Below, one piece after another: positions 7,352 to 14,360 of a stretch of DNA of 46,344 bases (its first letter is position 1; every line of letters starts with the position of its first letter). The position numbers and the translations under genes were made by a program. Below the pieces are notes generated by a model. The model saw only the letters and a program-made list of their open reading frames with translations, was not told the origin of the DNA and did not search any database. The DNA comes from Gemmatales bacterium (GTDB lineage Bacteria; Planctomycetota; Planctomycetia; Gemmatales; HRBIN36): NCBI GenBank assembly GCA_025055835.1, contig JANWWR010000020.1, positions 1-46,344 of the forward strand, given 5' to 3'.

Positions 7352-8158
7352 TCACCGGCCTGAAAATGGCGGGAACAGGCGGTTTTTCGCTGCTTCATCC
7401 AGCGGAGAACCGTATTCGCACGCCTCAAACATTTCCAGATACCGCACTTTCGGACCGATGCGGTCCCGATACCGATCAGCCCGTCGTTCGAGGCGGTCGA
7501 GCACTTGCCGGGCCAGCCAGGCTTTGCGTTCTTCGTCCGTCGTCGGTACCTGATCGGCGATGCCGCGGTTGTATGGCAGCCATTCGTAAAACTGAGAAGC
7601 GTGGCAGTGCAGCATGTCCACGATCTGATGGACGACTTCATCCACGGCTACGAAAACGGTCGGTTCAAACGGATACGGCTTGCGAAAGTCGTCGGGCAGA
7701 TAGGCGATGACCGGATCGCTGGCCAAGTGGGGCACTTCCGGCACGACGGCGGGCACCGTGACCAGGTAAGCGGCGTCCTGAACGAGTTGGCTGACGGCAC
7801 GATGATCGGGATGGTAATCGCAGGGCCGATGCGTCAGAACCAAGTCTGGTTGAAACTCCCTCAGGAGGCGAATCATCCGCCAGCGGTTTTCCAAGGTGGG
7901 CTGAAGCTTCCCATCCGGCAAATCGAGGATTTCGTAAGTGCCTCCGATGACGGCGGCAGCGGACTCGGCTTCGGCACGGCGTCGGGCGGCCAGTTCCGGA
8001 CCCCGCATTCGAAAATGTCCCGCGTCACCGTTGGTGAAGCTCACCATCTTGACCGTATGACCCGCCCGCCGGTACAGTGCAGCCAAGCCTCCAGCGTAAT
8101 ACTCGGCATCGTCCGGGTGCGCTCCGACGATCAACAACCGCAGCGGCTCGCCAACCAT
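7352..8158 (-). CDS. PIG-L family N-deacetylase
   Basis: A 268-residue enzyme of the LmbE/PIG-L zinc deacetylase family, which removes acetyl groups from N-acetylglucosamine-type substrates (for example MshB, BshB and GPI-anchor PIG-L). The zinc motif is AHPDD (H14, D16, D17) and the second metal/catalytic motif is HPDH (H116-H119). The core pattern VGAHPDDAEYYAGGLAALY is typical of the family. The open frame extends upstream to 8401, but that part runs into the divergent gene; the ATG at 8158 directly precedes the conserved first strand and has a GGGGAAGG behind it. No signal peptide is present. The physiological substrate cannot be told from the sequence; bacillithiol-type or cell-surface sugar synthesis are options. 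Confidence 0.88.
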   Translation of the reverse strand: MVGEPLRLLIVGAHPDDAEYYAGGLAALYRRAGHTVKMVSFTNGDAGHFRMRGPELAARRRAEAESAAAVIGGTYEILDLPDGKLQPTLENRWRMIRLLREFQPDLVLTHRPCDYHPDHRAVSQLVQDAAYLVTVPAVVPEVPHLASDPVIAYLPDDFRKPYPFEPTVFVAVDEVVHQIVDMLHCHASQFYEWLPYNRGIADQVPTTDEERKAWLARQVLDRLERRADRYRDRIGPKVRYLEMFEACEYGSPLDEAAKNRLFPPFSGR

Positions 8159-8194
8159 GACCAATACCTTCCCCTGCCCCTCGCCGTTCCACCA

Positions 8195-8200
8195 TATACT
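8195..8200 (+). promoter_or_regulatory. Possible -10 element for the giant fusion gene
   Basis: TATACT (5 of 6 to consensus) lies 29 bases before the ATG at 8229, in the 70-base gap between divergent genes. No good -35 is seen at 16-18 bases. A GAGGA at about 8214-8218 is the likely ribosome binding site. Confidence 0.35.
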
Positions 8201-8228
8201 TTCGCGGAATTGTAGAGGAACCCAAGCG

Positions 8229-11200
8229 ATGACCGCAAGCAATCTCCGTTTGCTTTGCCACAGGGCTGTCGCCATCGCTGCCTGGATGTTGGCCGCGACC
8301 TGTTTTCTCGGAACGGCCTCGCCGACAATCGCCGCTTCAGAAACTCGTGCAAACGACGAAGCAACGCTATATCCCGTCGGACTCAGCCGAACCGATGTCA
8401 CGCCGAACTACCCGGTGCGACTGAGCGGATTCGGTTTCCGCCGCACGGAATCCGAGGGCGTCACGCAGCGTATTTGGGTCAAAGCGTTGGCCATCGGCTC
8501 GGACGACGACGGCCCCCTCGTGGTCCTTGCGGTGGACAATCTTTTCGTCCCGCTGTGGATGACAGAGGAACTGGCTCAACGATTGGCGAAAAAAGCCAGG
8601 ATCCATCGGGATCGGTTGGCCGTCACGGCGACGCATACGCACACTGCCCCGGTTCTCAAAGGCACGGTGCCGACGCTCTTCGGCATGCCGCTGCCCGCCG
8701 ATCAACAGGAACGCGTTGATCGCTATTCCGCGGAACTGCTGGACAAGATGGAACAAACTGCCCTGGCCGCCTTAGCGGATCGACGCCCGGCGAAGCTGAC
8801 CTGGGGTATCGGCAGGGTATCCTTCGCCGTCAATCGCCGCACGCAGGGCGGTCCGGTGGATCACGACCTGCCCGTGATGGTGATTCGCTCGCCGGACCAT
8901 GCCATTCGCGGCATCTGGGTCAACTACGCCTGCCATTGCGTGACCCTGTCCAACAACAAGATTTCTGGAGACTGGGCCGGTTACGCCCAAGAGGCCATCG
9001 AAGACGACCATCCGGGAGCCATCGCCCTCGTCTCCATCGGCTGCGGCGCGGACGCCAATCCGAGTTCTGGCGTAACCGGCGACAAGGTCGAGATCGCCGC
9101 TCGGCAGGGTCGGGAAATCGCCGACGAAGTCAAGCGGCTGGTGGGAGGCTTCCTTACACCCCTGTCCGGCCAACTGCGGGCCGCTCGGAAAGTTTTTGAG
9201 CTTCCGCTCGACGAGCCGCCGTCCAAGGCCGAACTCGAAGAGCGAGCCAAGCGTCAAGACCACACCGGCTACCACGCCCGTTATCAGCTTGACAAGTTGA
9301 ACCGCGGTGAGGCGCTTCCCAAGACCATTCCCTACTCGGTTCAGGTGTGGGCGTTCGGCGACAAACTCGCCTGCGTGTTTCTGCCCGGCGAAGTGGTCGT
9401 GGATTACGCCCTGCGGCTGAAAAAGGAACTCGACGGCACACGGCTCTGGATCAATGCGTACAGCAACGATTGCCCCTGCTACATCCCCTCAGAACGCATT
9501 CTCCGGGAAGGCGGCTACGAAGGCGGGGGTGCCATGATCTACTACGGTCTGCCGACTCGTCTCAAACCCGGGCTGGAACAACCGATCCTTGATGCCGTCA
9601 AGGAACTAACTGGACCGGGTTTTCTGCCGCGGTTCGACGGAAACAAAACGCAAGGCACCCGACCTCTGCCACCGCAACAGTCCGCATTGACCCTGACGAC
9701 ACCTCGCCAATTGCACGTCGAACTGGTCGCCTCAGAGCCTCTTGTGCAGAGTCCGGTCGCCATCGATTGGGGACCGGATGGACGGCTCTACGTCGCTGAG
9801 ATGCTCGATTACCCTGAGGGCCTGGACGGAGCTTATCGGCCTGGCGGTCGCATCCGCGTTCTGCATGACCTCGACGGCGACGGCCGATACGACCGAGCCG
9901 ACGTCTTCGCCGACGGTATCCCTTTCCCTACTGGCGTCCTGGCCTACCGGGACGGGGTCCTTGTCTGCGCCGCTCCAGACATCCTTTACCTGGCCGACAC
10001 CGACAATGACGGACGGGCCGAGGTGCGTTTGAAACTCTACAGCGGCTTCGGCACGGAGAACTATCAGGCCCGTGTCAACAGTCTGGAGTACGGCCTCGAC
10101 GGATGGATTTACGGATCATGCGGCATGTTTGGCGGAACGATTGCCTGCACGTCGCTGGATGGCAAGCACCGTCGTACCGTGGCCTTGGGCGACCGCGACT
10201 TTCGCATCCGGCCAGAAACCGGAGAGTTGGAACCGGCCAGCGGTCGGACGCAGCAGGGCCGGGTCCGGGACGATTGGGGCCACTGGTTCGGCTGTGATAA
10301 CAGCACCTTGCTCGTTCACTATCCGCTCGATGAGCACTATCTTCGTCGAAACCCACACGTCAAAACCCGTTCGCATCGGGTTTACGTGCCCGGCTACCAG
10401 AACTCTCACCGGCTGTTTCCGGCCATCGGTCATCAGCAGCTTTTCGCCCTCTCCGGTCCACCTCGAACGGTGACGGCTGCCTGCGGTCTGGGAATCTACC
10501 GCGACGATCTGCTCGGTCCCCAGTACCGCGGCAATGCTTTCATCTGCGAACCAGTCAACCATCTGGTTCATCGCGAGGTGATGAGTCCGCGAGGCAGCAC
10601 GTTCACCAGTCGCCGAGCGGAAGAGGAAAGCCAAAGCGAATTCCTGACCTCGACCGATCCGTGGTTCCGTCCCGTGCAAGTCCGCACCGGGCCGGACGGG
10701 GCCTTGTGGATCGTGGACATGTATCGCTTCCTCATTGAACATCCGCGCTGGATCCCTCCCGCCGACCTGGAAAAACTCGATGCCCGGGCAGGAAGCACGT
10801 TCGGCCGCATCTATCGGATTGTCCCGCGGGAAGGAAAGCCACGTCCGGTGCCGAAACTGGATCGCATGTCAGCGCCCCAGCTGGTTGAAGCGCTGGACAC
10901 GCCCAACGGCTGGCAGCGGGACATGGTTACGCATCGGCTGTTGCTGCTGCCCAAGGAATCGCTGCGATCCCTGCAACCGCCCCTGCAACGGCTGGCCATC
11001 GAGGCCCAGCGACCTGAAACCCGCCTGGCAGCTTTGTGCGTGCTCGATCAGGCCCGGCTTCTTGGAGCGGAGGTCGTTCAACGGTCCTTGACCGATGCCG
11101 ATGCCCGGGTCCGTCGGCATGCGGTTCGGCTCGCACCGCTTTACCTCCGCTCAGCCGAGGAACTGCGAACCCTTTGGAATCTGGTGGACGAGCTCGATCC

Positions 11201-13448
11201 ACACGTTCGCCTGGAACTCGCCTGTGCCTTGGGCGGCGTTTCCGAACCGAGAGCCGCGGAGGTGCTGGTCGCACTGATCCGGCCTGGTACGGACGCCATC
11301 TTCGCTGACGCCTGGCTGAGCAGCCTCAACAAGGACAACTGCGTTCCGATCCTGAGATCGCTGACGACACGCCTACGCAGCGGAGAGATGTTGCCAATGC
11401 GATCAATCCTCATCGGCACGACGGCGACGTTGTTGCGGACGCAAAGCCAGGAAGCGGTCACACCTCTTTTGGCGGAAGCGCTTCGTCCGGACAAGGAGAC
11501 AGCAGCGTTCGCCGGCTGGCAATGGGACGTGCTTGCTGGCGTTTTGGACGTAACGGCATCCCACGTGGAAAAGCAACCGTGGAAGCCAGGCGACGATCTG
11601 CACTCACTCGTGCAGAAAATGCTGAGGCACGCCCATGAGCGAGTCGCCGATCCCGCTTGTGCGGAATACGAGAAAGTCCGATTTCTCCAGTATCTCGGCC
11701 ACGATGAGGCCCACCGCGAGGAAGATTTGAAGCTGCTCGCCAGCCTGCTCAGCCCGGATCAGTCGCCGGCCGTCCAGCAGACCGCCCTGCGAGTGATGAG
11801 CCGAATTCCCGATGATCGCATCGCTGGCATCGTGCTGGCCGATTGGCCTAACCGAACGCCGGGCACCAAGGCAGCATGTTTAGACCTGCTTCTGAGTCGC
11901 CCGAAATGGGTCAAGGAGTTGATTGCCGCTCTGGTTTCAGGCAAGGTTTCGGTCAACGATCTTGATGCGACACGCCGTCAGATCCTCCTCGACCATCCCG
12001 ACGCCGAGGTGCGTTCGACGGCAGCTCGGATTTTCAGCGGACCTAGCTCGGCAGATCGTGCCAAGGTGCTTGCGGAATATCGGCCAGCAGCGGCGACTTT
12101 GGGCAATGCCGTCGAAGGCAAACGCCTGTTTGCGAAGCACTGCTCAGGCTGTCATCGTCTGGAGAATGTCGGGCACAGCGTTGGTCCTGATCTGGCTGCC
12201 GTCGCCTCGAAACCTCCCGAATACTTGCTCCAGGAAATCCTCGATCCCAATCGCAACGTGGACACACGGTACACGATCAACCGCATCCTGCTGAAGGACG
12301 GTCGCATCGTTTCCGGTTTGTTGGCCTCCGAGAATGCCGCCACGCTGACGCTTCGCGCTCAAGAAGGCCGGGAAGAGGTCGTACTCCGATCCGAAATTGA
12401 ACAGTTGCAAGGCACCGGCCGATCGCTGATGCCGGAAGGTTTCGAGAAAGAATTGTCGCCACGTGCCATGTCCGACCTGCTTGCTTACTTGGCCAGTGCG
12501 GTCCCCTCGCCGGAGGCGGTTTCGGACAGTTCCCCGAAACCACCGTCGAAGCCGCATGAGAATGTCCTCAAGGCCAAGCCGTCTGCCGCCGACAACGGCA
12601 CCGAGCCGAATCGCCAAGAACCTGGAGCTGGCAAAAAAGTCGATCCCAAATCCGTCGCTGCCCAGCTACTCGACGACTCGCTTCCCTCAGCCGTCCGACA
12701 GGGCCTCGCTGCTCGCCACGCGGATCAGGCTGCCGAGATCATCGCGGCCATGACCGCCGATCTTGGCGCAGACGCTAAGGAGGAATACCGCCGCATTCCG
12801 TGGATCTGGCGGGTCGCCGTCAATGCCGGCAGGAAGAACGAAGATGGCGTGCTGATTCGGCTCTTCGAAGTGGCACTGCCGGAGAAGAACGGCAAACTTC
12901 GTGACTGGCAGGCAGTCGTGCTCGGCGGCGGCATCGTCCACGGACTTAGCCTCGAAGGATTGTGGCCCAAGACGAGAATTGCCGAACTGCTCAAGAATCG
13001 TCCCGACCTGGCCGCCCGTTGGCAGCAGGCCCTGGACCAGGCTTCCAGCATGGCCGACGACGAAAAGGTGCCGACGGGAACCCGGTACGATGCCCTGCGG
13101 ATGATCGCGATGGAGACGTGGGAACGCCGCGGGAAGCAGTTGTTGAAGTATCTGCAAAAAGGCATCCACGAGGAAGTGCAGAGCGGAGCGGTCAGCGGAC
13201 TGGCCGACATGCAGACCCCCGAAGTCGCCGAGCCGCTTGCCCAGGCGATCAGCTATCTGCCGCCAGACAACCGCCGCCTCGCCCTCGACGCTCTCATCCG
13301 TTCAACGGATCGCGTCAAGGTCTTGCTTGATTATCTGGAGAACGGGAAGATCGAAAAAAGCTGGCTGAGCAACGAGCAGATTCGCAAGCTCAAGCGGGTA
13401 GAGGATGCGGCATTGAAACAGCGGGTCGAGCGCTTGTTCGGCTCGTGA
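8229..13448 (+). CDS. Exported fusion: ceramidase-like domain, propeller dehydrogenase, HEAT-like helices and cytochrome c domain
   Basis: A 1739-residue protein. After an N-terminal hydrophobic segment (about residues 12-36, a signal peptide) comes a neutral/alkaline ceramidase-like domain (about 45-470) with GLSRTDVTP, the H136/H138 pair in THTHTAP and ACHCVTL. From about residue 490 to 880 is a beta-propeller of the Pirellula/Verrucomicrobium dehydrogenase type (TIGR02604-like), with WGPDGRLYVAEMLDYPEG, DLDGDGRYD and TDNDGRAE. HEAT-like helices run to about 1290, followed by a TIGR02603-like heme domain with C1305-x2-C1308-H1309. A Pro-rich linker leads to a last helical region (about 1480-1739). 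I placed the start at ATG 8229; the frame upstream overlaps the divergent gene. It probably acts outside the cytoplasmic membrane in an oxidation tied to electron transfer; the substrate is unknown. Confidence 0.85.
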   Translation: MTASNLRLLCHRAVAIAAWMLAATCFLGTASPTIAASETRANDEATLYPVGLSRTDVTPNYPVRLSGFGFRRTESEGVTQRIWVKALAIGSDDDGPLVVLAVDNLFVPLWMTEELAQRLAKKARIHRDRLAVTATHTHTAPVLKGTVPTLFGMPLPADQQERVDRYSAELLDKMEQTALAALADRRPAKLTWGIGRVSFAVNRRTQGGPVDHDLPVMVIRSPDHAIRGIWVNYACHCVTLSNNKISGDWAGYAQEAIEDDHPGAIALVSIGCGADANPSSGVTGDKVEIAARQGREIADEVKRLVGGFLTPLSGQLRAARKVFELPLDEPPSKAELEERAKRQDHTGYHARYQLDKLNRGEALPKTIPYSVQVWAFGDKLACVFLPGEVVVDYALRLKKELDGTRLWINAYSNDCPCYIPSERILREGGYEGGGAMIYYGLPTRLKPGLEQPILDAVKELTGPGFLPRFDGNKTQGTRPLPPQQSALTLTTPRQLHVELVASEPLVQSPVAIDWGPDGRLYVAEMLDYPEGLDGAYRPGGRIRVLHDLDGDGRYDRADVFADGIPFPTGVLAYRDGVLVCAAPDILYLADTDNDGRAEVRLKLYSGFGTENYQARVNSLEYGLDGWIYGSCGMFGGTIACTSLDGKHRRTVALGDRDFRIRPETGELEPASGRTQQGRVRDDWGHWFGCDNSTLLVHYPLDEHYLRRNPHVKTRSHRVYVPGYQNSHRLFPAIGHQQLFALSGPPRTVTAACGLGIYRDDLLGPQYRGNAFICEPVNHLVHREVMSPRGSTFTSRRAEEESQSEFLTSTDPWFRPVQVRTGPDGALWIVDMYRFLIEHPRWIPPADLEKLDARAGSTFGRIYRIVPREGKPRPVPKLDRMSAPQLVEALDTPNGWQRDMVTHRLLLLPKESLRSLQPPLQRLAIEAQRPETRLAALCVLDQARLLGAEVVQRSLTDADARVRRHAVRLAPLYLRSAEELRTLWNLVDELDPHVRLELACALGGVSEPRAAEVLVALIRPGTDAIFADAWLSSLNKDNCVPILRSLTTRLRSGEMLPMRSILIGTTATLLRTQSQEAVTPLLAEALRPDKETAAFAGWQWDVLAGVLDVTASHVEKQPWKPGDDLHSLVQKMLRHAHERVADPACAEYEKVRFLQYLGHDEAHREEDLKLLASLLSPDQSPAVQQTALRVMSRIPDDRIAGIVLADWPNRTPGTKAACLDLLLSRPKWVKELIAALVSGKVSVNDLDATRRQILLDHPDAEVRSTAARIFSGPSSADRAKVLAEYRPAAATLGNAVEGKRLFAKHCSGCHRLENVGHSVGPDLAAVASKPPEYLLQEILDPNRNVDTRYTINRILLKDGRIVSGLLASENAATLTLRAQEGREEVVLRSEIEQLQGTGRSLMPEGFEKELSPRAMSDLLAYLASAVPSPEAVSDSSPKPPSKPHENVLKAKPSAADNGTEPNRQEPGAGKKVDPKSVAAQLLDDSLPSAVRQGLAARHADQAAEIIAAMTADLGADAKEEYRRIPWIWRVAVNAGRKNEDGVLIRLFEVALPEKNGKLRDWQAVVLGGGIVHGLSLEGLWPKTRIAELLKNRPDLAARWQQALDQASSMADDEKVPTGTRYDALRMIAMETWERRGKQLLKYLQKGIHEEVQSGAVSGLADMQTPEVAEPLAQAISYLPPDNRRLALDALIRSTDRVKVLLDYLENGKIEKSWLSNEQIRKLKRVEDAALKQRVERLFGS

Positions 13449-13454
13449 CCGGCT

Positions 13455-14360
13455 TTAAGGCGCGATCTCTTTGCCTTGCAGGACTTCGATGTGGCCGTTG
13501 CGGGCCACGGCGAATTTGAAATCCGTCCTGGCCGTGCAGGCGGCCCCGGTCTGCCCTTGCGTGTTCAGAGCGATGAAGGCGACCCGGGCCGGATGCACGC
13601 CCCGTCGCGCCGCCGTGGCGTTGACCTTGCGAACGGCCAGTTCACAGGCCTCCTGAGGCGACCGCCCGGCCCGCATCGCCTCCACGATGGTCAAGCTGCC
13701 AGCGATGCGAATTATCTCCTCGCCGACGCCGGTTCCACCCGCCGCTCCCGCCGTGTTGTCCACGTAGAGACCGTGGCCAATCAACGGCGAATCGCCGACC
13801 CGGCCCGGCAGCTTGTGAGCCAGGCCCGATGTCGTGCAGACGCCGCCAAGGTTGCCTTCCTTGTCCAGACAAAGCACCGTGACCGTGTCGTGACTCGTGT
13901 AGTCGTCGTCCGGCGGAGCCGGTTGCACACTGTCCCGGCGACCGCGGCCCGGCTTGCTCTTTTCCCACTGTTCCAGACTCTTTGGCGTCAGCAGATTTTC
14001 CAGAGGAAAGCCCTGCTGAAGGGCGAAGAGTTTCGCTCCTTCGCCAACCAGCAAAATGTGCGGCGTCTTCTCCATCACCCGCCGAGCCAAGGCAGCGACG
14101 TGACGAATGTTTTCGACCCCCGCCACGGCTCCGCAATTGAGTGTCCGCCCATCCATGACGCAGGCATCCAGTGACACGGTGCCAATGCTGTTGGGCAGGC
14201 CGGCATAGCCGACGGAGTTGACTTCGGGATCGTCCTCGACAGCCTGAGCGCCGGCCAGAGCAGCGTCCAACGCTGACGCACCTTTGCGCAGCAGGTCGTC
14301 GGCGACGGTGACTGCCGTTTTCCCGAAAACCCAAGTGGCGATGGCGACGGGTTCTGCCAT
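13455..14360 (-). CDS. Ntn-hydrolase asparaginase (glycosylasparaginase / isoaspartyl peptidase type)
   Basis: A 301-residue member of the asparaginase-2 family, which self-cleaves to expose a catalytic threonine and then hydrolyses N4-(GlcNAc)-Asn, isoaspartyl peptides or asparagine. The cleavage site is H157-D158|T159 in SHDTVTVL, followed by the family segments GNLGGVCTTSG, GRVGDSPLIGHGLYVDN and GAAGGTGVGEEI. The N-terminal VEDDPEVNSVGYAGLPN is the usual substrate-side segment of glycosylasparaginases. The protein has no signal peptide, so it is probably cytoplasmic and may repair or recycle damaged peptides. AAGGAG lies eight bases before the ATG at 14360. It is 80 bases downstream of pgk on the same strand. 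Which amide it cuts is not decidable here. Confidence 0.87.
   Translation of the reverse strand: MAEPVAIATWVFGKTAVTVADDLLRKGASALDAALAGAQAVEDDPEVNSVGYAGLPNSIGTVSLDACVMDGRTLNCGAVAGVENIRHVAALARRVMEKTPHILLVGEGAKLFALQQGFPLENLLTPKSLEQWEKSKPGRGRRDSVQPAPPDDDYTSHDTVTVLCLDKEGNLGGVCTTSGLAHKLPGRVGDSPLIGHGLYVDNTAGAAGGTGVGEEIIRIAGSLTIVEAMRAGRSPQEACELAVRKVNATAARRGVHPARVAFIALNTQGQTGAACTARTDFKFAVARNGHIEVLQGKEIAP

Follow-up and report, generated by a model that had tools for sequence, protein, structure and literature searches.

This locus raises the question of whether a single planctomycete protein could both hydrolyse a substrate and oxidise the product. Within the window, the 46,344-nucleotide stretch of Gemmatales bacterium DNA analysed here, one frame on the + strand (8157/8229-13448) stays open for 1763/1739 codons and encodes 1739 aa from a start at 8229, upstream of which lies AGAGGA, a ribosome-site-like stretch. 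A first-pass annotation had proposed that this frame joins ceramidase-like, propeller, HEAT-like, heme and further helical parts, and Pfam and NCBIfam recover every one of them; the profiles PF04734, TIGR02604 and TIGR02603 all score above their cut-offs. The product is an exported, single-heme, multidomain protein in which an enzyme domain is fused to a propeller, to helical repeats and to a heme domain, arranged as follows.

8229..8336, + strand: Sec-type signal peptide, residues 1-36 (...ASPTIAA/SE), judged by eye from the sequence
8343..9638, + strand: neutral-ceramidase-fold zinc hydrolase domain, residues 39-470 (PF04734, profile against the PDB, AF2/Foldseek)
9639..9719, + strand: linker between hydrolase and propeller, residues 471-497 (open frame, kept in orthologues)
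9672..10829, + strand: DUF7133/TIGR02604 beta-propeller with DxDxDG acidic loops, residues 482-867 (Pfam/NCBIfam, model, Foldseek)
10866..12083, + strand: HEAT-repeat solenoid 1, residues about 880-1285 (HEAT_2 match; helices in the model)
12096..12518, + strand: TIGR02603 cytochrome c domain, C1305-x-x-C1308-H1309, predicted distal ligand M1401 (NCBIfam; 7zs0 alignment)
12605..13445, + strand: HEAT solenoid 2, residues about 1460-1739 (orthologue matches to profile positions 525-789)

Such a long composite frame might in principle have arisen by a frameshift or by misassembly where the ceramidase-like part meets the propeller, and the reading frame was therefore followed across the junction at about 9640-9720. 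It is uninterrupted in the orthologue of a congener, which is 79% identical over residues 32-1739, and is also continuous in single-contig assemblies (e.g. G013, G020, G433, G084, and G129). Because the same order recurs in many independent assemblies, we reject an artefact, the probability of which is negligible, and regard the physical fusion as genuine.

The N-terminal domain has the fold of a neutral ceramidase. PF04734 matches residues 48-262 (E 2.2e-10), and a profile built from 23 relatives finds the neutral ceramidases of P. aeruginosa (2zws, E 1.5e-22) and human (4wgk, E 5.9e-18) in the PDB. The AlphaFold2 model of the domain (pLDDT 91) superposes on 2zxc/4wgk with TM 0.72-0.73 (Foldseek E about 1e-24), ceramidases being its only convincing structural matches. 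Residues relevant to catalysis fall at these positions, where the count is that of domains in an 89-domain alignment.

8634..8642, + strand: H136 (predicted Zn ligand, = H97 of 2zws) and H138 (= H99; human H196), by alignment, both 89/89
8835..8840, + strand: R203 (= R160; human R257) and R204 (family-specific), by alignment, both 89/89
8934..8936, + strand: H236, predicted Zn ligand (= H204), by alignment, 89/89
9039..9062, + strand: GCGADANP motif, residues 271-278, where the ceramidase active-site Ser motif would be expected (inferred placement)
9390..9392, + strand: E388, predicted Zn ligand (= E411), by alignment, 89/89
9480..9518, + strand: Y418 (= Y448, Zn ligand; human Y579) and Y430 (= Y460; human Y591), by alignment, both 89/89

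Thus H136, H138, R203, H236, E388, Y418, and Y430 align on H97, H99, R160, H204, E411, Y448, and Y460 of the P. aeruginosa enzyme, among which we take H97, H204, E411, and Y448 to be the zinc ligands. All seven are invariant across the 89 domains, whether these are fused or not, and this holds even for a far clade of upstream genes described below. A review of the human enzyme names H196, R257, Y579, and Y591 as critical for catalysis (PMC6952831). Alignment and model therefore bear out the ceramidase-like assignment of the domain, in which the four predicted zinc ligands are joined by three more residues of the catalytic site, and suggest that it is probably an active zinc hydrolase with metal chemistry like that of neutral ceramidase.

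It is, on the other hand, probably not a ceramidase. The active-site serine of ceramidases (S274/S354) sits in a GxxSPN-type motif, in place of which the window domain has GCGADANP. No serine dominates columns 270-278 of the 89-domain alignment, where the motif reads GCG[AG]D.NP (the register of the ceramidase serine is inferred here, no alignment spanning it), and no ceramidase was matched by a profile that covered the second half of the hydrolase domain and was meant to place that serine. In the human enzyme, Ser354 has been placed as a support of R257 (PMC6952831). The window protein also gives no Pfam match to a C-terminal Ig-like domain; in the fusion the hydrolase domain runs up to the propeller, and most standalone genes stop shortly after it. 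If the domain were a true neutral ceramidase, and the sphingoid base or amino alcohol that it frees were then oxidised, this would account for the fold and for the zinc-site residues, all of which are common to both. Nevertheless, PF04734 is matched over only the first 231 of its 509 positions, and the missing serine motif and Ig-like domain make true ceramidase activity unlikely, so that we give this reading very little weight. Relative to neutral/alkaline ceramidases (PF04734, EC 3.5.1.23; 2zws, 4wgk), then, the domain shares the fold, the four zinc ligands and the His/Arg/Tyr catalytic residues, but it has a replaced serine motif, no Ig-like domain, an extra invariant Arg (R204), only 16% identity in the structural match, and a redox chassis to which it is fused.

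That chassis is the complete propeller-HEAT-cytochrome unit of the PVC-type heme-binding CxxCH proteins (TIGR02604 plus TIGR02603; DUF7133), from which the window protein differs by its N-terminal zinc hydrolase and by a second, C-terminal HEAT array. PF23500/DUF7133 matches residues 482-867 (E 1.9e-144) and TIGR02604 residues 495-867 (299 bits against a cut-off of 122), and the propeller model has a pLDDT of 88. The heme domain is exactly as first annotated: C1305, C1308, and H1309 form the sole CxxCH of the whole protein, and TIGR02603 matches residues 1292-1423 with 128 bits (cut-off 68). Alignment to Kustd1711 (7zs0) places M1401 on M292, which crystallography identified as the distal heme ligand (PMC11791136), and a His/Met heme c is therefore expected. 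Kustd1711 likewise has a CxxCH and a distal Met in its cytochrome domain, but it is a small diheme cytochrome with neither hydrolase nor propeller fusion. The "further helical region" proves to be the second HEAT array, since the C-terminal stretches of orthologues give a second match to positions 525-789 of the propeller-HEAT-cytochrome profile. Two other chassis proteins were seen in the same genome: a single 1361-aa frame with a CotH kinase domain, DUF7133 and cytochrome c (L126:1687-5769; G000:C113), and a GH2 sugar-binding domain (GH2_N) fused to DUF7133, HEAT and cytochrome c (L128:2193-6116; G000:C18).

Whether the chassis performs an oxidation turns on the propeller, for which "dehydrogenase" is at present a name only. 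It could be a PQQ-dependent sugar dehydrogenase (sGDH/AA12-like) fused to a de-acylase, with PQQ being scavenged. Foldseek does match the propeller model to 3das, a PQQ aldose sugar dehydrogenase (E 5.6e-5), and to sGDH (8re0/1c9u), as middling matches among many to solenoids, and there is a marginal sequence match to 3das (E 0.0012). The similarity to soluble PQQ aldose/glucose dehydrogenases (3das, 1c9u) is thus one of propeller fold. The putative position of the sGDH catalytic His is occupied by A614 here and by A/G/Q/H/L in fused relatives, in a register taken in part from the weak 3das alignment; a PDB search with the L126 propeller, meant to fix that register, returned unrelated weak matches only. 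PF07995 is matched by 3 of 22 relatives and not by the window propeller, which matches DUF7133 only. Moreover, pqqE did not exceed its cut-off in any of the 61 relatives' genomes (best 96 vs 381 bits), nor in any of 14 control genomes, so that this search had no positive control. Taken with the fold similarity, these observations leave a PQQ enzyme improbable.

The same evidence can be read as favouring a hydrolase with an electron-transfer scaffold, in which the zinc domain would be the sole enzyme, the propeller and HEAT arrays would be binding or assembly modules, and the heme would serve an unrelated or partner redox protein. The conserved propeller residues are mostly Asp, Arg, Glu, and Asn, with no conserved His, which agrees with such an arrangement, as do the marginal PQQ-enzyme matches and the lack of pqqE above cut-off. 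Yet a heme domain with no local electron donor is hard to explain, and this one is kept in almost every full-length relative; we consider the scaffold arrangement somewhat less likely than the reading that we prefer. No redox cofactor site other than heme c is visible in the protein and, given this together with the base His and pqqE results, any link from hydrolysis to a following oxidation is so far hypothetical.

A clue to the substrate may come from what else occupies the N-terminal position. The nearest chassis paralogue in the same genome (C102, G000:C102:70748-75526; L119:4749-9527) is 45% identical and carries a CE4/NodB-like deacetylase with FG-GAP repeats fused to DUF7133-HEAT-cytochrome c. 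In this protein and its relatives elsewhere, the CE4-like heads bear the motifs IDD, HTxDH, FRxPCC, and FHPH in the same place as the ceramidase-fold head, although they match Polysacc_deac_1 weakly (E 1e-7 to 5e-4, with two of the four matches under the Pfam cut-off). The two proteins therefore have in common a chassis and a zinc-deacylase-type head in one position, and differ in that the L119 head is CE4-like with FG-GAP repeats, which suggests exchangeable zinc de-acylases on one redox chassis. That two types of zinc de-acylase share this place is our main reason for preferring an acylated glycan or amino sugar as the likely substrate. In Verrucomicrobia, a carbohydrate role has been proposed for planctomycete-specific cytochrome (PSCyt/PSD) proteins of unknown function, and related planctomycete cytochromes carry carbohydrate-binding modules (PMC5615132). 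Those proteins resemble the present one in combining phylum-typical cytochrome domains with variable accessory domains, but a ceramidase-like fusion is mentioned nowhere in that study (PMC5615132).

The link between hydrolase and chassis is also seen outside fused genes. We examined 23 standalone ceramidase-like genes with their flanks, namely L045-L047 and 20 relatives drawn from the unfused matches with the best scores; of these 20, six were adjacent and fourteen were not, a further adjacent gene and six non-adjacent ones being left aside. A DUF7133-cytochrome gene directly adjoins the ceramidase-like gene on the same strand in seven of the 23 (L107, L108, L110, L111, L113, L115, and L046), as against a chance expectation of about 0.15, a rough figure based on per-gene chance with assumed gene counts. 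In L107 and L115 the order is far ceramidase-like gene, ceramidase-like gene, DUF7133 gene; in L097 this far gene comes before a fused gene, as if the second and third genes had joined. A ThuA gene follows one gene set.

The far ceramidase-like genes (L097:11283-12587, L107:5856-7157, L115:8695-10056, and L105:8385-9869) encode about 435-495 aa, lie directly upstream of a ceramidase-like gene or fusion, and keep the zinc-site residues; the one tested gave no Pfam match. A further far gene, from the genome to which the window belongs, adjoins a DUF7133-cytochrome gene on the same strand (G000:C200:6068-10355). Two other ceramidase-like genes, L045:5319-7409 and L047:6893-8977, have about 220 extra C-terminal residues with no Pfam match and stand beside PSCyt2- and DUF1501-type genes.

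On a tree of the hydrolase domain (82 rows, quick method), the state, fused or unfused, must have changed at least four times, and three of these changes are forced by starred branches. Such counts cannot tell fusion from fission; nonetheless, a nine-member fused clade that nests within unfused genes is best read as an independent fusion, and the join probably arose more than once.

The two parts had been described as normally separate, but their combination is not rare. Hydrolase and propeller share one frame in 32 of 392 Planctomycetota genomes from an even draw, spanning 21 genera (30 of 217 in a good-quality subset), and about twenty of sixty relatives show the order hydrolase-propeller-cytochrome in one frame. 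None of 289 Verrucomicrobiota genomes carries the fusion at E 1e-130. One MAG labelled Verrucomicrobiales (L043) does, and as its domain nests inside a planctomycete clade, transfer or misbinning is possible. In this MAG, two ceramidase-like-DUF7133 genes stand in tandem (L043:6896-15317), the first inside the planctomycete clade and the second with LamG between its parts. The combination is thus spread through the phylum, yet uncharacterised: in a text search of 5.39 million open papers, we found no paper on a ceramidase-like and heme-protein combination, and nothing relevant on ceramidase with planctomycetes or PVC heme proteins or on ThuA/3-keto-disaccharide hydrolase with planctomycetes. 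To this extent "undescribed" holds, for a fusion that is widespread in one phylum and recurrently assembled, and that is a variant of planctomycete cytochrome proteins and not a new kind of system.

No gene flanks the fusions consistently; those that recur are few, namely PSCyt2/DUF1549, DUF1501, and kinases, and no sugar-metabolism neighbour is conserved. The window's own neighbours (dihydroxy-acid dehydratase-type, abhydrolase, PIG-L, Asparaginase_2, PGK, and GAPDH) were considered as a functional clue and set aside, none being conserved around fusions. Two of them, a PIG-L de-N-acetylase (7352-8305, - strand) and an Asparaginase_2 family gene (13455-14360, - strand), flank the fusion on the opposite strand, and both are amide hydrolase types.

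The combined hydrolase-oxidase reading with which we began survives in part: the fusion and its intact zinc and heme sites stand, while rarity, ceramidase activity and the identity of the dehydrogenase are unsupported or weaker than proposed. In its place we hypothesize, with a probability of roughly 0.4, a zinc de-acylase head on a chassis that binds, and perhaps oxidises, its product. The N-terminal hydrolase would cut the amide or ester bond that holds an acyl group on a polar substrate, for which an N-acylated amino sugar or glycan fragment is our best guess. The acidic-loop propeller and HEAT arrays may then act as a chassis to which the de-acylated product, or its polymer, binds and, if the propeller oxidises that product, the respiratory chain would receive the electrons by way of the His/Met heme c domain. 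Swapping zinc-hydrolase heads (ceramidase-fold and CE4-type) would pair one redox unit with different de-acylating heads. A stronger version, and one that we think rather unlikely, is that planctomycetes in general plug either of these zinc de-acylase types onto one propeller-HEAT-cytochrome c chassis, thereby coupling the extracytoplasmic de-acylation of a glycan or amino sugar directly to oxidation of the exposed unit by the propeller, through an unrecognised cofactor, with electrons passing to heme c.

Planctomycetes carry large families of such heme proteins of unknown role (PMC5615132). The zinc hydrolase head, being fused to one of them and strictly conserved, provides a concrete enzymatic handle on them. 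Of the new facts, three are of most use: the invariance of the zinc site, the occurrence of hydrolase and chassis as paired genes, and the swapping of one zinc de-acylase head for another. More generally, if the released product reduces the heme, these proteins would show how a major environmental phylum can use polymers by combined hydrolysis and oxidation.
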